Source of the DNA: Cyclonatronum proteinivorum
Lineage (GTDB): Bacteria; Bacteroidota; Rhodothermia; Balneolales; Cyclonatronaceae
Length of the DNA: 64,000 nucleotides
NCBI RefSeq assembly: GCF_003353065.1
Contig: NZ_CP027806.1
Location: 1,211,001-1,275,000 of the forward strand
Direction of reading: 5' to 3'
Below, in pieces: positions 26,065-40,132 of the stretch. The notes under the pieces are model-generated. The model was given only the letters and a program-made list of their open reading frames with translations, did no database searches and was not told the origin of the DNA. Within the stretch, counting starts at the first letter, position 1. Each line of letters starts with the position of its first letter. Made by a program: the position numbers and the translations under genes.

Positions 26065-28890
26065 TCAGAACGAAAACTGAATACTGAGGGATGGACTAAA
26101 TCCCGGCATCCTGCGGTCATAGACCGAAAGCTCCTGCGTGCCGTCTTCGTGCATGGCATGTGCGTGAACCCCGCGGTCAATGATGTTGCGGCGGTTCATC
26201 AGGTTTACGAGATCAAGGCGCGTCTGTAGCTGGGTGATACCTATGCTGCGGGTGTAGATGACTGACAGGTCAAACTGACTGTAGGCGGGCAGACGGTCCG
26301 CTTCGGGCTGTGTGAAGTCGAAACGGTCGATGCCGTGCACATTGTGCATCATCAGGAAGTCGTAGTAGGCCTGACGGAAACCCCAGGTCCGCCCCGAAAT
26401 GTACTGCCAGCGACCGGAGACAGTCCAGTTGTTCGTAAGGTGCCCCATCACCCGGGCCTGAACGCTGTGCGGCTGATTCCAGGGCGCAGGCATCACCCGG
26501 CCAAACTGTGACTGCATGTTGATTTCGGCGTAGCTGTAATCGTATCCCAAAAGAAGGTTGAGACTGTTTCCCATCAATTGCTGATTCAGTCTAACACTGC
26601 CGCCCCAGGAATTCAGGTCGGTGATTTCGGCAAACGCATCGAAGCCTTCGCGGGTGTGACCGCTGTCAGTAAGGAGGCGGTCGTACGAGGTGATGTAGCC
26701 GGTCGGCTGATGACGCAGCCAGCCTTCGAGGCGTATGGTTGTGCCGGGTGCCGGCTCCGAAAGAAAGCTTGCGCTGCCCTGCCAGGCCCTCGGCTGCGGC
26801 AGGCGGCTGTCATGCGCCCAAATCGTGAAAGACGGCACAATGGAGCTCGGTCCCGCATTGGTGATGTCGAACTGATTGATGAACTGCCGGTACAAGCCGC
26901 CGGCAACACGCACTGACCAAAATCCTATAGCTGATTTCTGACGATCATACTGCGCCTGCGCACGCGGCTCCAGAAAGGTTTGGTTGGAACCTGTGAGGCG
27001 GGTCAGGCGCGAGCCTGCGGTAAAACGCCAGGGGCCGGGCAGGCTGAAGTGCGTATTCAAATAAGTGCTGAAGTGTCCCGAGCGCTGTTCATCGCCCGCG
27101 GGCAGATAAAAGAGCGAGCTCAGATCGAAGGATGAGGCCACAAAGTCGGCCTGAATTCCGGCGGATAGTGAAAGCCGGGGATTGATGGCGTAATCGGCAT
27201 CTGCGCGCCCGAGAAAATGGCGGATTTCATTGCGGTCGTGCTGCAGGGCGCCATGCCCGAGGTTTTCACGGTAGAGCGAGAACACTTCGGCATCGCTGAG
27301 CGGCATTTCACCGGCAAGTGCGGCAAACACGCTGTTATCCGCCATAATATAGTTGTGCCGCATCCGGTTGCCGGAGAAACCGGCCTGAAAGCTCAGGTCG
27401 AGGCGCGGACTCACGACCCAGTCATAACCGAGCTGCGCGACCGTGTTTTGCCAGTTGTAGTGATCGCGCGAAAACATGAAGCCGTCTTCAAAAAACTGTT
27501 CCCGGGCAAGTACATCCGTCTCCACTTCATTGAGCCCGCTGTAGAGCGAAAAATTAATCCTGCGATACGCGCCAAGCTCCGCTGATCCGGCAAGGTGCAC
27601 GTCATAAAAGGCGATATTTGAGGCGTTGGCCACCGGCTGAAAACTGCGCATGCCCGCACTCGTAAGTCCCTGAGCACTGATGAGGCTGTACAGCATGGGG
27701 TCAATCGCGTCCCACTCACTCAGCGTACCCGAAAGCGTCGGATCTTCGAAAATGTCCCATACCGATGACCGTAGCGCGGCCATAAGATTCATCCGGTTGC
27801 CGGTTGGTGTTGTGTGTGAAGCGGAGCCAAAGAAGTTGGTACTTAGCGGATCGGCCTGCCAGATCAGGTTCTCGCCGTGCTGCGGACTTACCGCGTGTTT
27901 TAGCCCAATGCTGCCGGCAATATGGCTTCCCATGGAAGCATCAAAACCGGCCTTTTCGAGCTCAACGCGGCTGATGGCGAACGGACTGAAAGCGCTCAGC
28001 AACTGTCCAAAACTGTACGGGTTGTACACCGGCATGCCGTCGAGATACATACGGTGTTCGCCCCGCTGTGCGCCCTGAATGTGCGTGTCGCTCAGGGGCA
28101 GCCCGTGCTGTACGCCGCTGAACAGGCTCAGGCTTTGGACGGCGCACTGATGCCGGTCGCCGGTGCTCCACAGGCTGCGGGCTTCGGCTGTTTCGTGATG
28201 CCAGCTTGCGGGCAGCATGGACCGGTGTGCGGAAACCACCACCGGATTAACATCCAGCGGTTTGGGGTTCAGGGGGATGCGCTCACGGGTCGTGTCGTTG
28301 CCGTCAACTTCAATCGTTTTTCGGACAGCTTCGTACCCGATAAATGAAAAAATGAGCTCGTGCCGTCCGCTCATCATATTGTTGATACTGAAAAAGCCGG
28401 AGCGGTTGGTGACCGTGCCCCCGCTTGCGTCCGCGAACATCACGGTTGCTCCCTGCAGCGGCTCTCCGGTTGCGGCGTCAACCACCTGACCCGAAAATGC
28501 GCCGAAATCCGGCGGGCGCTGCGCCGATTGTACAATCACAAAAGTACCGGAGGATAAAATGATAAAGTCCAGCTGCGTACCCTGCAGTAAACTTGTGAGG
28601 AGCTCAGCGGTTGTGTTCCCCCTTACCCTGCGGTACACGGGCCGCGTCCCTACAATGCGGGGATCATAAATGAGGTCGGCAGATGTGAGCGCTGCGACTT
28701 TCTGAAGGGCTTCCGGCAGGGCTTCCCCGGAAAAATCAACACTAAAGGCGGGGCTTGTGTGCTGTGCGACAGAAGTCTGAAAAGGCAGGAGACTCATCAT
28801 CCCCAAAAAAAACAAAGAAAGTACCCGCTTGCCGGCGGGTACACTCGTTTTTATTCGGGGGAAAAAAGATAGGATCAGGTGCTGCAACAT
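26065..28890 (-). CDS. TonB-dependent receptor with STN signalling domain
   Basis: 941 residues. After the signal peptide (ending VAQ) an STN/secretin-like domain (about 48-120, FSVDFSGEALPEALQKVAAL onward) is followed by a carboxypeptidase-like regulatory domain (GQVVDAATGEPLQGATVMF), a plug domain with an LSDTHIQGAQRGEHRMYLDGMPVYNPYSFG stretch, and a long beta-barrel that ends SPSLSIQFSF with C-terminal Phe. It imports a large substrate through the outer membrane with energy from TonB. The STN domain is what touches a FecR anti-sigma factor, and that gene lies directly upstream. No SusD partner follows. The substrate is unknown. Confidence 0.9.
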   Translation of the reverse strand: MLQHLILSFFPRIKTSVPAGKRVLSLFFLGMMSLLPFQTSVAQHTSPAFSVDFSGEALPEALQKVAALTSADLIYDPRIVGTRPVYRRVRGNTTAELLTSLLQGTQLDFIILSSGTFVIVQSAQRPPDFGAFSGQVVDAATGEPLQGATVMFADASGGTVTNRSGFFSINNMMSGRHELIFSFIGYEAVRKTIEVDGNDTTRERIPLNPKPLDVNPVVVSAHRSMLPASWHHETAEARSLWSTGDRHQCAVQSLSLFSGVQHGLPLSDTHIQGAQRGEHRMYLDGMPVYNPYSFGQLLSAFSPFAISRVELEKAGFDASMGSHIAGSIGLKHAVSPQHGENLIWQADPLSTNFFGSASHTTPTGNRMNLMAALRSSVWDIFEDPTLSGTLSEWDAIDPMLYSLISAQGLTSAGMRSFQPVANASNIAFYDVHLAGSAELGAYRRINFSLYSGLNEVETDVLAREQFFEDGFMFSRDHYNWQNTVAQLGYDWVVSPRLDLSFQAGFSGNRMRHNYIMADNSVFAALAGEMPLSDAEVFSLYRENLGHGALQHDRNEIRHFLGRADADYAINPRLSLSAGIQADFVASSFDLSSLFYLPAGDEQRSGHFSTYLNTHFSLPGPWRFTAGSRLTRLTGSNQTFLEPRAQAQYDRQKSAIGFWSVRVAGGLYRQFINQFDITNAGPSSIVPSFTIWAHDSRLPQPRAWQGSASFLSEPAPGTTIRLEGWLRHQPTGYITSYDRLLTDSGHTREGFDAFAEITDLNSWGGSVRLNQQLMGNSLNLLLGYDYSYAEINMQSQFGRVMPAPWNQPHSVQARVMGHLTNNWTVSGRWQYISGRTWGFRQAYYDFLMMHNVHGIDRFDFTQPEADRLPAYSQFDLSVIYTRSIGITQLQTRLDLVNLMNRRNIIDRGVHAHAMHEDGTQELSVYDRRMPGFSPSLSIQFSF

Positions 28891-28941
28891 ACCGTGTTCC
28901 TGTTTGGAAATGCAGGGGGGTGAGGTGTCGCGGAAAAAGGC

Positions 28942-29925
28942 TTACCGGTGAATACGGAATCCGTTGGCCGTTTGTGAAAATTCAAGATTTTTCACCGTAC
29001 AGATTTCAGCCAGAATGGTTTCCAGCTGCGGTTCTGTGTAAAAGATACTCAGGCTTGCCCCTTCAATATCGGCTGCATTCACTTCAATAGCTACATCAAA
29101 TTTGCGCGCAAGTTCATCAAAAATAACAGAGAGTGGCTGCATGGAAAAGGCGATCTGATTGCTGAGCCAGGCCTGCGGTTGTGCGGCCTGTGAGTGAACC
29201 GGCTCGGTTGGGATGAGCTGACGGTCGCTGAGGCTACTACTTTTGCCGCTATCCACAACTACACTCTGATCGGCAAAACCGGTGCGGAAAAATTCAACCT
29301 GACCGGAAGTTACGCTCAGGGTTGTGAGGCGGTCGGGGTCTGTGTGCCAGGAGCGCAGGTTGAAGGAGGTGCCCAAAACCTGTACAACATTGTCGTTAGC
29401 CCGCACGAGGAAAGGCGTCTCGTCTGCCTGTACCTGAAAATAAGCTTCCCCGTTGAGGCGCACACTGCGGTTGGTGTAGCCGAAAAGCCTGTTAAATCCG
29501 ATTTCGGAACCGCTGTTAAGGGTTACGGTGCTGCCGTCGCGCAGGCTGAGCTCAAGGGTTTCGCCGGCCGGTACCTGTTGCCAGTTTACATGAGACATCC
29601 ATCCGAAGCCCAGTGCAAAAAGGGCCAGGGCAGCCGCAAGGAGTACGCTGATGAGCGGACCTTTGGAGCGCGGTTGCTGTGGCAGCTGAATAACCGGAAT
29701 GTCTTTTACGGGATGATCATCCTGCGCTTCTATACGCTTGCGGACATTGTACAGCGCCAGCTCCATATCGGCATCTGAAACTTCATCTTCAGTGAGCTTG
29801 CGGTGCGCGTCACCGGCCTGATTCCAGATGGCCTGCATTTCGCTACGCGTTTCACCATCGAGCCCGCTGAGGTGTTGGCTTACGGATGGCCCGTGTTTCT
29901 TTTTATTTGGTTTTGATTTTGCCAT
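28942..29925 (-). CDS. FecR-type anti-sigma factor with DUF4974
   Basis: 327 residues from the ATG at 29925, seven bases past the sigma-factor stop; an earlier in-frame ATG at 29961 would overlap that gene. One membrane helix (GPLISVLLAAALALFALGFGW) separates a cytoplasmic N-terminus from the periplasmic FecR domain (GETLELSLRDGSTVTLNSGSEIGF, VRLNGEAYFQVQADETPFLV, VQVLGTSFNLRSW). A C-terminal DUF4974 follows (QPLSVIFDELARKFDVAIEV). It holds the ECF sigma inactive until the receptor's STN domain reports substrate. The receptor gene follows 51 bases later. Confidence 0.9.
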   Translation of the reverse strand: MAKSKPNKKKHGPSVSQHLSGLDGETRSEMQAIWNQAGDAHRKLTEDEVSDADMELALYNVRKRIEAQDDHPVKDIPVIQLPQQPRSKGPLISVLLAAALALFALGFGWMSHVNWQQVPAGETLELSLRDGSTVTLNSGSEIGFNRLFGYTNRSVRLNGEAYFQVQADETPFLVRANDNVVQVLGTSFNLRSWHTDPDRLTTLSVTSGQVEFFRTGFADQSVVVDSGKSSSLSDRQLIPTEPVHSQAAQPQAWLSNQIAFSMQPLSVIFDELARKFDVAIEVNAADIEGASLSIFYTEPQLETILAEICTVKNLEFSQTANGFRIHR

Positions 29926-29932
29926 GGAGGTA

Positions 29933-30526
29933 CTACTTGAATTTTTGAGCGTGTTGTTCATGCATGCGCTGAAGGTTGCGGAGGGCATCCACAATATGAT
30001 TATTGACCGTTCGCGGGGAAACGTTCATCACGGAGGCAATCTCCTGGTGATCCAGCCCTTCAAAACGGCTCAGCCCGAATGCTTCCCGCTGCCGTTCCGA
30101 AAGCTGCGACACCCAGTGATAGAGCAGCTGCATCTTTTCATAGACGCCTTCGGATGATTCATCACTAAATGCATCATTCCAGCTAACATTTGTTTCCGTC
30201 AGGTCTCCCGCCAGCGTTTCAGACAGTTCCGTGCCGGTCTCAAACCTGGCATGGTCCCGAATGTAGTTGAGGCTCAGGTTGCGTGTGGTCGTATAAATGT
30301 ACGCCCGCGCTGACGCTATGCCGGACAGGGAACCGCGGTTTTGCCAAAGCTTCACAAAGGTATCCTGAACAATGTCTGAAGCCGTTGATTTGTCGTTCAC
30401 GTACCCGCAGCTGAACATCACCAAAGGCTTAAAAAAAGCCCGGAACAGCCGGTCGAACGCAGCCTGATCTGATTGTGAAATCAGTTCAAACAGTTCGCAG
30501 GTCTGTTCATTGGTGAGGGATTCCAT
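29933..30526 (-). CDS. ECF sigma-70 factor (FecI-like)
   Basis: 197 residues from the ATG at 30526. Region 2 is FRAFFKPLVMFSCGYVNDKSTASDIVQDTFVKLWQN and region 4 is LSERQREAFGLSRFEGLDHQEIASVMNVSPRTVNNHIVDALRNLQ; regions 1 and 3 are absent as in ECF factors. It directs RNA polymerase to a small regulon, here most likely the receptor operon, under control of the FecR protein encoded next. The gene order sigma, FecR, receptor is the classical cassette of Bacteroidota. Confidence 0.92.
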   Translation of the reverse strand: MESLTNEQTCELFELISQSDQAAFDRLFRAFFKPLVMFSCGYVNDKSTASDIVQDTFVKLWQNRGSLSGIASARAYIYTTTRNLSLNYIRDHARFETGTELSETLAGDLTETNVSWNDAFSDESSEGVYEKMQLLYHWVSQLSERQREAFGLSRFEGLDHQEIASVMNVSPRTVNNHIVDALRNLQRMHEQHAQKFK

Positions 30527-30695
30527 CTGATAGAGGTGATTTTTTGAATGATGTGTTAAAGAAATAACACAGCTGCCGGGCGCTATACCTATATCCGGTC
30601 GGCATTGCATTGATAAATAAGATCAGGCAGCGGGCTGTGTTTTTTTTCGGTGGATGTGTTTCCGGCCTGTGCCTAATGTGTTGCCCTGTAATACT

Positions 30696-31865
30696 TTAAT
30701 CCAGTCCGTCCATGGTGAATTTTCGGAGGAGGATGCTGCGCAGCGGCGGAAGCAGCAGGAGCCGCACCATAATTTTGTTAAAAAATACGGCTCGCTGTGA
30801 AAAGGAACGGCCCATGCGGAGGTTGAACTCCGCCCGCTCGGCAGCAGTGTAGGCGGCATTCCGGCGGCGGTACTCATAGCTGTTGAGCAGGCGCGGCAGC
30901 GGTTTGTGCGGACGCAGTACATCCGGCAGCAGTCCGGCCAGCAGTTTTGCGTCAAACCAGCCCAGGTTCATGCCCTGCCCGCCAATGGGACTCACAACAT
31001 GCGCGGCATCCCCCGCCAGAATGACGCGCCCTTTTACGAAGCTTTCCGCCATCATCCGCTGCACGCCAAAGGTGCTGAGCATGCTGTTGGTCGCTGCATC
31101 CGGTGAGGTGCCGGTGCGCTCAAGGGCGAGGCCGGCGATGAGCTGCGCATCCGGTGCGCTGACTGCATCCCTGGTTTTGATGACCCAGCGGCGCAGGTTT
31201 TTTCCGTGCGGGAAAGATTCGACCAGGCCGTCTTCACACAAATACACCCGCGCTTCTTCGCGGCTGCCCAGGTTGTCGTCAAAATCACCCATGATGTAAT
31301 GATCAGGGTAGCTGCCGCCGAGAAAGGGAATGCCGGCTTTTTCGCGGACCAGACTGTTCTTGCCGTCGCAGCCGATCAGGTAGCGGCACCGGATTTCGCT
31401 GCCGTCGGTGAGCTTCACCTGCAGCCTGTTTTTTTCCTTAGTGAAGTCCGCAAAACCAAGGCCGCGGTGCAGCTGTTCGGGGGCAAGCGAAAGCAGGGCC
31501 CGCTCCAGTATTTCTTCGGTGACCTGTTGGGAAAGGGTCAGGATGAAGGGGAAGCTGTTCGGAAGTCTGGTGAAGGGGATGGTACCGATGGCGTCGTGAT
31601 TCACGTAGGCGCGGCCCACGCGGATTTGATTTCCGGCTTCGAGAAAGGCGTCTGAAAGTCCTACTTCCTGAAAGAGCTGCAGCGAGGGCGGATGAATACC
31701 GATGGACCGTGAGTGCTGCGAGACTTCTGCCCGGGGTTCGACCATCTGAAACGGAATGCCGGCTTTCGCGAGCAGGATTCCGAGAAGCAGCCCGGTAGGC
31801 CCGGCACCGGCAATCAGGATGTCGGTTTCGGCGGGGAGTTGGAGTTTTGTTTGTGAAGCCATCAC
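30696..31865 (-). CDS. FAD-dependent aromatic hydroxylase (PheA/TfdB family)
   Basis: 389 residues. The FAD GxGxxG is DILIAGAGPTGLLLGILLAKAG, the DG motif lies in GCDGKNSLVREKAGI, and the GD motif in GDAAHVVSPIGGQGMNLGWFDA. These three mark the class A flavoprotein monooxygenases that hydroxylate phenolic rings with NAD(P)H and oxygen. It is the last gene of the cluster with a methyltransferase (10 bases upstream) and a type III polyketide synthase. The likely role is hydroxylation of a resorcinol-type lipid to a hydroquinone/quinone (inference from srs-like clusters). Confidence 0.88.
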   Translation of the reverse strand: MMASQTKLQLPAETDILIAGAGPTGLLLGILLAKAGIPFQMVEPRAEVSQHSRSIGIHPPSLQLFQEVGLSDAFLEAGNQIRVGRAYVNHDAIGTIPFTRLPNSFPFILTLSQQVTEEILERALLSLAPEQLHRGLGFADFTKEKNRLQVKLTDGSEIRCRYLIGCDGKNSLVREKAGIPFLGGSYPDHYIMGDFDDNLGSREEARVYLCEDGLVESFPHGKNLRRWVIKTRDAVSAPDAQLIAGLALERTGTSPDAATNSMLSTFGVQRMMAESFVKGRVILAGDAAHVVSPIGGQGMNLGWFDAKLLAGLLPDVLRPHKPLPRLLNSYEYRRRNAAYTAAERAEFNLRMGRSFSQRAVFFNKIMVRLLLLPPLRSILLRKFTMDGLD

Positions 31866-31875
31866 CCTGCACCCG

Positions 31876-32574
31876 TCACGGATTCATGTGTGTAACCAGC
31901 AGCCGGAACGGGATGGTTGCTTCAACCCGGTAGCCTTCGGGTACGAGTTGCTGCAGCTCATCAACCGTGTAGCTGCGGCGAATGGAAGTAAGCCCGTCGT
32001 AGCGGATGAAGGAATCCCGGAAAGAAAAAAGCGTCAGTCCGTTGAATAAAAACCACGCGATATCGCTGCGGCAGAGGTCGCTGAACAACACCATTTCGTT
32101 GGCAAGCTTTTTCGCATTGGTAAGCAACGAGGTCACTTCCGGACCTTCAAGATGATGGATGAGGTGGTTAGAAATGACGAAATCATAGGTTTCGCCTTCT
32201 TTAACCAGATCAGCTTCCGAAATGCACTGAAACGAAATGCCGGTGTTGCGAAAGGTCGTATTGACGTAAAGCAGCGCTCTGGGGTCGGTGTCGATGGCTG
32301 TTATTTGCAGTTTGATCCCGTATTTGAAGGCCAGCTCGCGCATGTGCAACGGAATATCGCCGCCCCCGAAACCGATATCAAGTAGCGTATAGACCTTGTT
32401 ATCATCGGTACATCGTGGCGCGATATATCGGTGGAAGAGCAGCTCCCAGCCCGAAAGCATGCGGTTGATGTGGGTGAAGTGCCGGTAGGTGTTGTTGAGG
32501 AGAACAGGATTGCAGTCTGCGGAATCCATGAGCTCCGCAGTGTGCGTATCACGATTTCGGAGAAACAGCGGCAT
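31876..32574 (-). CDS. class I SAM-dependent methyltransferase of the polyketide cluster
   Basis: 232 residues. Motif I is LLDIGFGGGDIPLHM, followed by AIDTDPRA (acidic end of strand 2) and FVISNHLIHHLEG (motif IV/post IV). It methylates a small molecule with SAM; its place between a type III polyketide synthase and an aromatic hydroxylase points to the phenolic polyketide. Its start overlaps the polyketide synthase end by 26 bases, so translation is probably coupled. The Streptomyces srs operon uses an unrelated membrane methyltransferase at this step, so this would be a different solution. Confidence 0.85.
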   Translation of the reverse strand: MPLFLRNRDTHTAELMDSADCNPVLLNNTYRHFTHINRMLSGWELLFHRYIAPRCTDDNKVYTLLDIGFGGGDIPLHMRELAFKYGIKLQITAIDTDPRALLYVNTTFRNTGISFQCISEADLVKEGETYDFVISNHLIHHLEGPEVTSLLTNAKKLANEMVLFSDLCRSDIAWFLFNGLTLFSFRDSFIRYDGLTSIRRSYTVDELQQLVPEGYRVEATIPFRLLVTHMNP

Positions 32575-33730
32575 CGCTTGATTCGGGGATTTCGGCTTCG
32601 GGTTGGGAGTGATTTGGGCTTTGCTGCGAAGGCTGATTGAGCGGGGTGAACAGGCCGGTCTCGACCGTCAGGCCCGGGCCAAATGCCATGCTGATCACCG
32701 GTTTGTTCTTCGCAGGGAAATCATAGAGCAGGGACTTAAGCACAAATAAGATAGTGGCACTACTCATGTTTCCGTAGTCGCGCAGGGTTGCGCGGGAAGG
32801 GGCAAGCTGTTCCGGCTTCAGGCTGATACTGTGCTCAATCTTGTCGAGAATGGCGCGTCCGCCGGGGTGCACGGCCCAGTAACCAAACTGTTCCGGATCA
32901 GGATTTTCGCCCAGAATGGGCAGTAACAGATCGCCAATGTTGGCCTGAATGATATCCGGAATGTAGGTAGAAAGGACCATGTCGAAACCGTTGTCGCCAA
33001 TGGTCCAGGCCATATCGCGCTCGCCCTGCGGAGTAAGAGCGGTGAAAAGCCCGTCCATGCGCAGGGCGGGTTTGGTCGGAGCGGGCTCACGGCGGCTCAC
33101 AATGGCAGCGCCGGCACCGTCAGCGAAAACGGCGGCAGAAAGCAGGGAATCCGTGTCCGTTTTAGGCTGCAGGTGAATGGTACACAGCTCAAGACAGACA
33201 ATCAATACAACGGCGTCCGGGTTTTCTGCGGTGATGGTTTCCGCCATTTTGAGGGCCGGAAAAGCAGCGTAGCATCCCATAAAACCGATGTGATAGCGCC
33301 GGGTAGTTGGCGGAAGGTCTAATGCGCGCACGATGTAGTAGTCAGGACCCGGTGCAAAAAAGCCGGTGCAGGATACGGTTATAACATGCGTAATATCCGC
33401 GCGCCCGAAGTCAGAAGCGTCAACGGTTTTCTCTGCCAATGCTGTGAACATCGCTTTGGCAGCTCCAGTGTAGCGGTCGTTGCGTGCACCGGTACCAGGA
33501 TTGAGAAACGTCTGCGTTTCGGCATCAAAAAAATCCCCGCTTTCGCCTGAATCAAATTCGGTGATGACACTGTGCCGTTTGTCGATTCCGGACAGCGCAT
33601 ACACGCGGTGCAGGATTCGTTTGATGGCGTCGCGGTCGGCTACGTGTTTCTGCATGAAATCACGGGCGAACGCCATGGAATAACTCTTTTCAGGAACAAG
33701 CGTTTCGAGCTGATGAATGTAGGCGGGCAT
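32549..33730 (-). CDS. type III polyketide synthase
   Basis: 393 residues, the normal size for chalcone-synthase-like enzymes. The catalytic triad is complete: Cys153 in IGFMGCYAAFPAL, His288 in WAVHPGGRAI and Asn321 in RDYGNMSSATILFVL. The GPG loop MAFGPGLTVETGL is also present. The enzyme condenses malonyl-CoA units on a fatty acyl or other starter, giving pyrones or alkylresorcinols. The unusual tail (about 370-393, Ser/Pro/Gln rich) is disordered. It leads a three-gene unit with methyltransferase and hydroxylase; the MATE exporter gene lies 64 bases upstream on the same strand. Confidence 0.93.
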   Translation of the reverse strand: MPAYIHQLETLVPEKSYSMAFARDFMQKHVADRDAIKRILHRVYALSGIDKRHSVITEFDSGESGDFFDAETQTFLNPGTGARNDRYTGAAKAMFTALAEKTVDASDFGRADITHVITVSCTGFFAPGPDYYIVRALDLPPTTRRYHIGFMGCYAAFPALKMAETITAENPDAVVLIVCLELCTIHLQPKTDTDSLLSAAVFADGAGAAIVSRREPAPTKPALRMDGLFTALTPQGERDMAWTIGDNGFDMVLSTYIPDIIQANIGDLLLPILGENPDPEQFGYWAVHPGGRAILDKIEHSISLKPEQLAPSRATLRDYGNMSSATILFVLKSLLYDFPAKNKPVISMAFGPGLTVETGLFTPLNQPSQQSPNHSQPEAEIPESSDAAVSPKS

Positions 33731-33794
33731 GGGGAAGTCTGTTTAATAAGCGGTTCAGGAATCCAAACGAGGGCGGTTGCTTTCCCGTTCAGCT

Positions 33795-35198
33795 TCAAAG
33801 GGTTTCATCCGCGTTTGCCATCAGCTCCTTGCGGCTTCGGTTTCGGGTGAGGTAGCGGAAGCGCAGGTTGTGCAGTACCGCGGCCGTAGTCAGCCCAAGA
33901 ATGAGACCCGCCCAAAGTCCTTTTGGACCATACTCCAGGTGAATACCCAGCACATAGCCCGAACTGAACCCGATTATCCAGTAGGCAATCAGGTTTACGA
34001 TCATCGGAATTTTGGTATCCTTCAGGCCCCGCAATGCTGCAGATCCGCTGACCTGCAGGCCGTCGGAAATCTGAAACACCGCTGCCATAAAGAGCAGTTG
34101 CACGGCAAGCGGAGTCAGTTCGGGGTCGTCGGTGTAAATGCCAATGAGCATATCCGGAAAGAGGAAGAAGAGCGCGGCCGTACAGCACATCAGTGCGGTA
34201 GCCATGCCGATCCCAACGTATCCGGAGAAGGTCGCGTTGACAAGCGAGCCGCGCCCCAGGTTTTGGCCCACCCGAATGGTGATGGCGCTTGAAAGACCGA
34301 AGGCCATCATAAACGTGATGGAGGCCAGATTGAGGGCAATCTGATGTGCGGCAACGGCGGTAGTGCCCAACATGCCCATAATGAGCGCAACAACGGCGAA
34401 CATGCTGACTTCCATGGTGAGGGTGATTCCGATCGGGAAACCCAGTCGCAGCAATTCTTTCATGTACTGCGGATCGGGCAGTCGCAGGGTGTCGAAAATC
34501 CCGAAAATGGCGTAGTCTTTTCTTTGCCAGGTGTAGGCCAGCATGCTTATGCACATCACCCACATCACAATCATAGTAGCCCAGCCGGTGCCAACTGCGC
34601 CGAGTGCCGGGAAGCCGAATTTGCCGAACATCAGCGTGTAGTTACCCAAAATGTTGAAGAAAAGCCCGATGACCCCGATAAACATGGCTGGCCGCGTCAC
34701 GGATACGGCTTCGTTGAAATGCTTGAGGGCTAAAAAGGAAAAGAAGCCGGGAATGCCCCATGCCGCAGCTTTCAGGTAGCCTTCGGTAAGGCGCGCGACT
34801 TCCGGATCAAGGTCAAGCAGGGTGAGCACCGGATAGGCGTTGCGCAGCAGCAGAATGGTCGGAATGGCCATGAGCACAGCCAGCCAGAGGGACTGCCGCA
34901 CGCTGATACCGATTATGTCGCGCTCCTCCGCGCCGAAATGCTGCGCCACAATGGGCGTAACGGCCATAAGAATACCCACACCCAGCATGAACACAGGGGT
35001 GAGAATGCTCGAACCAATGGCGACCGCTGCCAGATCGTTGGTGCTGAGGTTGCCCGCCATCACCGTATCTACAAATGACATGGACATTTGTAGCAGGTTT
35101 GCGATAATCAGCGGGTAGCCCAGTCGGAAAATTTGACTGACTTCTGCGGTTATCCGGCTTTTTAGGGGTGGCGGTTGATGGGGTTCGGAGCGGTTCAA
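33795..35198 (-). CDS. MATE-family multidrug/metabolite exporter
   Basis: 467 residues with 12 membrane helices in two similar halves. Typical parts include GYPLIIANLLQMSMSFVDTVMAG in helix 1, VTPIVAQHFGAEERDIIGISVRQS after helix 2, and the second-half repeat GFPIGITLTMEVSMFAVVALIMG. NorM-like transporters use sodium or proton gradients to export organic cations and metabolites. Given the Na+ pump rhodopsin in this genome a sodium-driven type is possible (inference). It lies between a kinase gene and the polyketide cluster; export of the cluster product is a guess. Confidence 0.9.
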   Translation of the reverse strand: MNRSEPHQPPPLKSRITAEVSQIFRLGYPLIIANLLQMSMSFVDTVMAGNLSTNDLAAVAIGSSILTPVFMLGVGILMAVTPIVAQHFGAEERDIIGISVRQSLWLAVLMAIPTILLLRNAYPVLTLLDLDPEVARLTEGYLKAAAWGIPGFFSFLALKHFNEAVSVTRPAMFIGVIGLFFNILGNYTLMFGKFGFPALGAVGTGWATMIVMWVMCISMLAYTWQRKDYAIFGIFDTLRLPDPQYMKELLRLGFPIGITLTMEVSMFAVVALIMGMLGTTAVAAHQIALNLASITFMMAFGLSSAITIRVGQNLGRGSLVNATFSGYVGIGMATALMCCTAALFFLFPDMLIGIYTDDPELTPLAVQLLFMAAVFQISDGLQVSGSAALRGLKDTKIPMIVNLIAYWIIGFSSGYVLGIHLEYGPKGLWAGLILGLTTAAVLHNLRFRYLTRNRSRKELMANADETL

Positions 35199-39160: not shown

Positions 39161-40132
39161 TTAAGCGATAAAATTGCAGGGGTAATCGGCTCCGCAGAGC
39201 GTCTTGGCAATAGCCCCCGCAGCGAGCATCCCCATTTTCAGGCGGGTTGGTTTTGTAGCACTTGTAATATGCGGAATGAGGACGGCATTTGGAGCAGTAA
39301 GTAGCAGCTCGTTGACTTCCGGCTCAAATTCGTAAACGTCAATACCTGCACCGGCGATTCGTTTTTCGTGCAAAGCTTTGGCAAGAGCAAGTTCATCAAC
39401 AACAGGCCCCCGGCTCGCATTAATCAGATACGCGCCGGGCTGCATGGCATCGAGAAAATCGCTGTCCACCAGATGGTGGGTACGCGTGTTCAGCGGACAG
39501 TGCAGGCTGATGACGTCCGCACGAGATGCGAGCTGAATCGGGTCTTCAAACCAACGTGCCTGAAGCTCATTTTCAACAGACTCGGGCAGTCTGTTTGGGT
39601 TGCTGTAGATAATCTTCATTCCGAATGCCCGCAGTCTTTTGGCTACCGCCTGTCCGATTCGGCCCATGCCGATAATGCCGGCGGTTGCGCCATTCAGCTC
39701 CAAACCCAGGAAAGCTGTTGGGCTCCATCCGTCAAAGCATCCTTCCCGCAAAAACCGCTCAGATTCCGTTATTCGCTTTACGGTGGAAAGTAATAATGCG
39801 ACCGTTCCGTCGGCTGTGGTTTCAGTGAGTACATCCGGGGTGTTCGCTACCCGTATGTTGTGGCTGCGGCAAGCGGCTAAGTCAATGTTGTTGTATCCAA
39901 CTGCATAATTAGCCACAACTTTCAGAATGGAGGCATTGCTCAGAACGGTGCTGTTAACCGGGTTCGAGAGCATGCACAGCAGGCCGTCATAGCGCGAAAT
40001 GGCATCGCGGAGCGTATTTGCATGGTTGAACTGCCCCCTTTTGCCAACATGCAGCTCGAAATACTTTTCCAGCAATTCATGAACTTCCCGAAAAACGGGC
40101 TCTGTGAGAAGAACTTTAGGTTTTCGGGACAT
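39161..40132 (-). CDS. D-2-hydroxyacid dehydrogenase (glyoxylate/hydroxypyruvate reductase type)
   Basis: 323 residues. The NAD(P) Rossmann motif is GIIGMGRIG (152-160). The catalytic set is Arg241 in NASRGPVVDE, Glu270 in YEFEPEVNE and His288 in LIPHITSAT. The substrate loop ANYAVGYNNIDL fits the glyoxylate/hydroxypyruvate reductase branch better than phosphoglycerate dehydrogenase, since no ACT domain is present. It reduces a 2-keto acid to a D-2-hydroxy acid. It sits between a kinase gene (45 bases downstream) and rsfS. Confidence 0.9.
   Translation of the reverse strand: MSRKPKVLLTEPVFREVHELLEKYFELHVGKRGQFNHANTLRDAISRYDGLLCMLSNPVNSTVLSNASILKVVANYAVGYNNIDLAACRSHNIRVANTPDVLTETTADGTVALLLSTVKRITESERFLREGCFDGWSPTAFLGLELNGATAGIIGMGRIGQAVAKRLRAFGMKIIYSNPNRLPESVENELQARWFEDPIQLASRADVISLHCPLNTRTHHLVDSDFLDAMQPGAYLINASRGPVVDELALAKALHEKRIAGAGIDVYEFEPEVNELLLTAPNAVLIPHITSATKPTRLKMGMLAAGAIAKTLCGADYPCNFIA

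Follow-up and report, generated by a model that had tools for sequence, protein, structure and literature searches.

A putative phenolic-lipid operon conserved in Balneolales and shared with other bacterial groups

What do a type III polyketide synthase (T3PKS), a methyltransferase and a flavin adenine dinucleotide (FAD)-dependent monooxygenase make when their genes lie side by side, and does the MATE transporter gene just upstream take part? The question is raised by a locus of Cyclonatronum proteinivorum (order Balneolales), which we analyzed within a stretch of 64,000 nucleotides (contig NZ_CP027806.1, positions 1,211,001 to 1,275,000; hereafter the window) that lies inside a single contig of 4,294,247 bases. 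From sequence comparison, predicted structures and analogy with described operons we hold, with moderate confidence, that the three enzyme genes would constitute an operon whose product is a phenolic lipid of the alkylresorcinol/alkyl-hydroquinone class.

Conservation of the three-gene arrangement

According to the open reading frames (ORFs) of the window, transcription runs in the order MATE, T3PKS, methyltransferase and FAD monooxygenase (Table 1). The T3PKS and methyltransferase ORFs overlap by 26 bases, 10 bases separate the methyltransferase from the FAD gene, which starts with a GTG at 31865 followed by an ATG at 31862, and the gap between MATE and T3PKS is 64 bases. The original prediction had placed four ORFs of these families here on one strand, with the enzyme genes overlapping or nearly touching and following the srsABC-like order of T3PKS, methyltransferase and FAD hydroxylase; the ORF list, the ORF order and the Pfam matches all agree with it. 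The T3PKS gene is present as a single copy in the host genome.

A T3PKS was present in 55 of 59 relatives, and a profile search of the class found it in 185 of 244 genomes, namely 117/128 within the order Balneolales and 68/116 outside the order. Matches to NF004851, the family of the window methyltransferase, were obtained in 172 of the 244. Both genes occurred together in 165 class genomes, the T3PKS alone in 20, the methyltransferase alone in seven and neither in 52; since the genomes are related, the p value of this co-occurrence is not a probability. Within Balneolales (n = 128) the corresponding numbers were 112, 5, 2 and 9, and several of the genomes with only one of the two genes are fragmentary assemblies. 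The prediction had proposed joint conservation in relatives as a check, and the three genes are indeed kept together, as the synthase was followed on its 3' side by both the methyltransferase and the FAD gene in 30 of the 33 order loci that extend 2.6 kb or more downstream. The three remaining loci are a second T3PKS paralogue (L032) and two in which no FAD gene was seen downstream. This second T3PKS (L032:7662-8864, genome G017) is 44% identical to that of the window and has no methyltransferase or FAD neighbor.

Outside the order we examined 18 of the 68 T3PKS-positive class genomes, picked from those with printed coordinates, and found the triad in 7 of the 17 loci with enough sequence, all seven in family f19. 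As a separate observation, genomes of family f18 usually carry an NF004851-like gene elsewhere in the genome. The triad also extends to other phyla. Of 80 named loci, 65 reached far enough downstream, and both the methyltransferase and the FAD gene are present in 50 of them, the holders including Balneola, Fodinibius, Gracilimonas, Rhodohalobacter, Truepera and Gemmatimonadota-labelled metagenome-assembled genomes as well as, in Micrococcales, Arthrobacter, Paenarthrobacter, Brachybacterium and Kocuria. The 15 loci without both genes comprise ten labelled as Verrucomicrobia (or genera thereof), one Gemmatimonadetes, one Deltaproteobacteria, Rathayibacter, Motilibacter and one Balneolales (L081). 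Verrucomicrobia-labelled loci (L108, L109, L121, L122, L124, L129, L145, L146, L149 and L158) have a close T3PKS with no NF004851-type methyltransferase adjoining.

The same three-gene operon was found on plasmid 3 of Deinococcus radiodurans (NZ_OV024759.1) and in Deinococcus sp. QL22, and each of the seven Deinococcus plasmid records that matched the methyltransferase matched the T3PKS and FAD proteins as well. The D. radiodurans operon has the same families in the same order, with a T3PKS 48.8% identical to that of the window, and differs in having no MATE, kinase or dehydrogenase gene alongside. Taken together, the gene arrangement is not a matter of chance, since nearly all order loci keep it and other phyla share it. 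No literature on the operon in Balneolales or Deinococcus was found in a limited literature collection.

To follow the inheritance of the triad, a quick maximum-likelihood tree was made for each of the three proteins (T3PKS, methyltransferase and FAD protein) with one common set of 72 loci (69 different rows), hand-chosen from five groups and all with the full triad. The numbers of group-label changes were 4 for T3PKS, 8 for the methyltransferase and 5 for the FAD protein, as compared to about 32 in shuffles and a minimum of 4; Deinococcota and Balneolales did not form single clades in all three trees. Judged from these sequences, the triad seems to be an old unit that mostly tracks the large groups.

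The three enzymes and related operons

The chalcone/stilbene synthase domains of the T3PKS score 81.7 and 88.4 bits, both above the Pfam cut-off of 27, and the catalytic triad Cys153-His288-Asn321 is invariant in a 40-member alignment. Cyclization specificity can be approached through Trp242, which is conserved in all 40 aligned members and in 22 of 22 further loci. This position corresponds to Trp281 of ArsB, to residue 284 of ArsC and, by alignment to 1i8b, to Gly256 of chalcone synthase (named via G256F), and it carries a bulky aromatic residue as in ArsB-like alkylresorcinol synthases. When the PDB was searched with a profile, Trp242 aligned with the Trp of ArsC G284W (3vs9) at 33.6 bits, and wild-type ArsC (3vs8) scored 24.2 bits across the same stretch. 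The G284W exchange in ArsC is reported to increase resorcinol and decrease pyrone formation, and W281G in ArsB to have the opposite effect (PMC6274091); a Trp at the ArsB 281 position is also reported for PkqA (PMC9927152). Trp242 therefore favors a resorcinol over a pyrone, in line with the alkylresorcinol of the original prediction. In the predicted model, with a predicted local distance difference test (pLDDT) score of 90, the closest folds were Steely1, Pks18 and the Ectocarpus PKS, tied near Z 48, and the C-terminal tail (372-388) is predicted to be disordered. A 36-residue query against the PDB gave no match.

The methyltransferase scores 254.2 bits against NF004851, over the curated cut-off of 243, and only class I methyltransferase families match it; the only name of NF004851 is 'hypothetical protein'. 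All 34 aligned members match this family, all match UbiG weakly, and the cofactor-binding motifs are invariant. In the predicted model (pLDDT 94) the best structural match was NovO (Z 20.1, root-mean-square deviation (rmsd) 2.6, 202 residues) followed by CouO (Z 19.6, rmsd 2.8, 205 residues), with plantazolicin methyltransferases (18.1), Coq5 (17.8) and UbiG (15.9) lower, so the profile search favors UbiG whereas the structure comparison favors NovO/CouO. NovO and CouO are reported to methylate a carbon of a phenolic ring, CouO using His120 and Arg121 with His117 nearby (PMC5289526). The window protein has N136-H137-x-x-H140-H141, with the spacing of His117-x-x-His120-Arg121 in CouO and His in place of Arg; this likeness is one of motif, not of superposition, and other class I enzymes contain an HHL motif as well. 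As NovO and CouO are the best structural matches, and the methyl group added in planctomycetes was judged in the cited work to sit on carbon (PMC10896814), C-methylation appears at least as likely as O-methylation, on the basis of the model and the analogy.

The FAD enzyme consists of a full FAD_binding_3 domain without a C-terminal extension. Its cofactor-binding motifs are invariant in a 31-member alignment, the invariant columns including those that we take to be the GxGxxG, DG and GD motifs. All 31 members match a UbiH/UbiF/COQ6 hydroxylase model, the window protein scoring below its curated cut-off. Hydroxylases of this type use O2, and the final pathway step would then need oxygen.

Polyketide quinones are made by srsABC of Streptomyces griseus and pkqABC of Mycobacterium smegmatis, where a T3PKS, a methyltransferase and a flavin monooxygenase/oxidoreductase follow each other as in the window; the mycobacterial polyketide quinones are reportedly the subject of a 2015 Molecular Cell paper. 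The combination of T3PKS, methyltransferase and flavin enzyme presumably also leads to alkyl-methoxyhydroquinones in agqABC of Actinoplanes missouriensis, which we take to differ by a prenyl transfer step. The M. smegmatis operon has been called homologous to srs (PMC5916927). SrsB is described as an isoprenylcysteine carboxyl methyltransferase (PMC6669644), and by this description it is set apart from the class I enzyme of the window, a replacement that the prediction had recognized. For this reason we did not file the operon under srsABC. For the Streptomyces strain MNU77, alkyl-benzoquinones are reported to accompany an operon that combines a synthase, a methyltransferase and an oxidoreductase, and the synthase of this operon is reported to rescue a mycobacterial mutant (PMC9927152).

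Methyltransferase, FAD oxidoreductase and T3PKS genes are also joined in one operon in hidABC of picocyanobacteria, which makes hierridin, and in planctomycetes. The order reported for both, methyltransferase-oxidoreductase-T3PKS (PMC10896814, PMC8086630), differs from that of the window; the Hid proteins were compared by description only. The Paludisphaera oxidoreductase matches FAD_binding_3 weakly (55.6 vs. 180.8 bits) along with several other FAD families, and was not found by the window FAD-enzyme profile above 40 bits. Filing under hidABC was thus rejected as well, given the other gene order and the other type of flavoprotein. Planctomycete synthases of the related operon type are reported to give alkylresorcinols in Corynebacterium glutamicum, and co-expression of the methyltransferase and flavoprotein with the synthase to add one methyl group (PMC10896814). 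The operon in the window is similar to srsABC/pkqABC and hidABC without belonging to either type; it is a variant with an NF004851 methyltransferase.

Proposed product and alternatives

If the three enzymes act in the order of their genes, the synthase would load a long-chain acyl thioester on Cys153 and add three malonyl units, and the resulting tetraketide would be closed by aldol condensation to a 5-alkylresorcinol. The methyltransferase would then methylate the ring or a ring hydroxyl, and the FAD monooxygenase could hydroxylate the ring at a position para to a hydroxyl already present, which would yield a hydroquinone open to oxidation to a benzoquinone. The lipid would stay in the membrane with a housekeeping role, for instance that of a redox carrier, an antioxidant or a structural lipid of the membrane; such a role is the most likely one because the operon is near-core in Balneolales. 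The product is probably a standard component of the cell rather than an occasional antibiotic, since the genes are kept together in nearly all Balneolales and occur in Deinococcus too. In the host genome MenB scored over its cut-off and no match to VitK2_biosynth (MqnA/MqnD) was found, and by these searches the host probably makes menaquinone, in which case the phenolic lipid would serve either as a redox lipid beside menaquinone or as a component of the membrane.

Several findings weigh against an operon for phenolic-lipid synthesis. Four Balneolales genomes that are each at least 90% complete (G011, G036, G078 and G106) have neither T3PKS nor methyltransferase, thus the operon can be lost and is not essential everywhere. 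The FAD gene was not found downstream in two of the order loci (L046 in G058 and L053 in G006), and the ten examined loci of families f18 and f15 (L172-L181) have the synthase without a methyltransferase or FAD neighbor. Among solved structures the FAD enzyme has no close relative, and a rifampin monooxygenase ranks first. Regarding cyclization, Pks11, which is filed as an alpha-pyrone synthase, also has a Trp at the position of Trp242, and CylI, described as a resorcinol former (PMC8086630), has a Leu there in our alignment. A Trp at this position is consequently neither sufficient nor necessary, and we rejected Trp242 as proof of a resorcinol.

The alternative that survives best is a methylated membrane lipid of alkylresorcinol type without redox cycling, in which case the FAD enzyme would yield a stable catechol or a hierridin-type hydroquinone ether. 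We regard this as a possibility to be taken seriously, if a minor one: hierridin B, the hidABC product, is reported to be a methylated and hydroxylated alkylresorcinol (PMC10896814), alkylresorcinols are reported to join the membrane of encysting Azotobacter (PMC4824345), and there is nothing decisive on the other side; sequence cannot separate such a lipid from a quinone. This alternative overlaps with the phenolic-lipid operon proposed above, and our confidences do not add up to one.

A quinone in the full sense, that is a second, non-isoprenoid membrane polyketide quinone made via NF004851 and serving Balneolales, Deinococcus, Truepera and Micrococcales as a near-core carrier of electrons or as a redox buffer, is put forward only tentatively. 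If true, this would be a polyketide-quinone route distinct from srs/pkq, extending such quinones to Gram-negative phyla.

It is rather unlikely that the operon instead makes alkyl-alpha-pyrones, which the methyltransferase would convert to methyl ethers and the FAD enzyme would hydroxylate either on the pyrone itself or along the chain. In favor of pyrones, the closest folds include pyrone synthases of the Pks18 type (Z 48.0) and Pks11 shares the Trp, but the invariance of Trp242 together with the aldol switch of ArsC G284W points the other way, and a UbiH/UbiF-type hydroxylase with a UbiG/CouO-like methyltransferase suits a phenolic ring better.

A phenolic-lipid product would give a testable function to the curated 'hypothetical protein' family NF004851, and would illustrate that an operon of this kind can belong to the near-core traits of an entire order instead of being a scattered secondary-metabolite cluster. 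The order Balneolales consists of poorly studied salt-lake bacteria and Deinococcus is radiation-resistant; the genetically tractable D. radiodurans offers a place to ask whether polyketide quinones are present and active outside Actinomycetota.

The MATE gene and the surroundings of the operon

Upstream (5') of MATE lie the genes for a large sensor kinase and a D-2-hydroxyacid dehydrogenase, and the block dehydrogenase-kinase-MATE-T3PKS-methyltransferase-FAD is common in Balneolales. Of the 36 order loci for which 2 kb or more of upstream sequence is available, 31 have MATE directly 5' of the synthase. In genome G017 the dehydrogenase, kinase and MATE genes are together on contig 15 and the two T3PKS genes on contigs 14 and 5; in G011, which lacks a T3PKS, the kinase gene remains next to MATE; in G057 each of MATE, kinase and T3PKS is on a contig of its own. 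Among loci outside the order with enough upstream sequence, MATE was at the triad in none of 16 class loci and none of eight plasmid loci, and all 26 named loci with MATE bear Balneolales-type labels. Since MATE stays with the kinase without the synthase, and the triad outside the order is without MATE, the gene is most likely a neighbor by descent and probably outside the functional unit. The original prediction was right about its place 64 bases upstream on the same strand, and export of the product, suggested at the same time, is poorly supported; we rejected MATE as a dedicated exporter as it is not kept wherever the triad occurs. A secreted antibiotic or signal exported by this MATE is accordingly very improbable: the gene's usual place directly 5' on the same strand, and the other efflux genes that flank T3PKS operons in Methylobacterium and Sphingobium, are outweighed by its association with the kinase (and dehydrogenase) even in genomes that lack the synthase or have it at another place, by its absence from the triad in the class and plasmid loci outside the order, and by a near-core distribution unlike that of a typical antibiotic cluster.

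Table 1. Coordinates of the operon and its upstream neighbors in the window
Feature	Position	Strand	Basis or remark
Type III polyketide synthase (T3PKS), 393 aa	32549..33730	minus	Pfam Chal_sti_synt_N/C
Trp242 codon of T3PKS, cyclization-specificity position	33005..33007	minus	Alignment to 3vs9
Class I S-adenosylmethionine (SAM) methyltransferase, 232 aa	31876..32574	minus	Pfam Methyltransf_25/11; NF004851 (PRK06202)
Class A FAD monooxygenase, 389 aa	30696..31865	minus	Pfam FAD_binding_3 (5.5e-53)
MATE transporter	33795..35198	minus	Pfam MatE (2e-71); Balneolales syntenic neighbor
Large membrane sensor histidine kinase, 1283 residues	35264..39115	minus	HAMP, HisKA, HATPase
D-2-hydroxyacid dehydrogenase	39161..40132	minus	Likely homologue in L185 matches 2-Hacid_dh

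The sensor kinase is a multi-membrane protein with an AtoS-like C-terminus, and it is kept beside MATE in much of Balneolales. A scan for promoter-like sites (3 vs. 2.8 expected) and terminator-like sites (8 vs. 6.5 expected) was uninformative. On the 3' side of the operon (window 26065-30610, same strand) are genes for an extracytoplasmic function (ECF) sigma factor, a FecR anti-sigma factor and a TonB-linked outer-membrane protein; among loci L031-L070, only L031, which is from the same genus, has the sigma factor and FecR genes beside the operon. The G+C content is about 0.54 between 6 and 40 kb and drops to about 0.46 past 40 kb (window 40000-64000), and five tRNA genes are located at 44.9-46.6 kb of the window.

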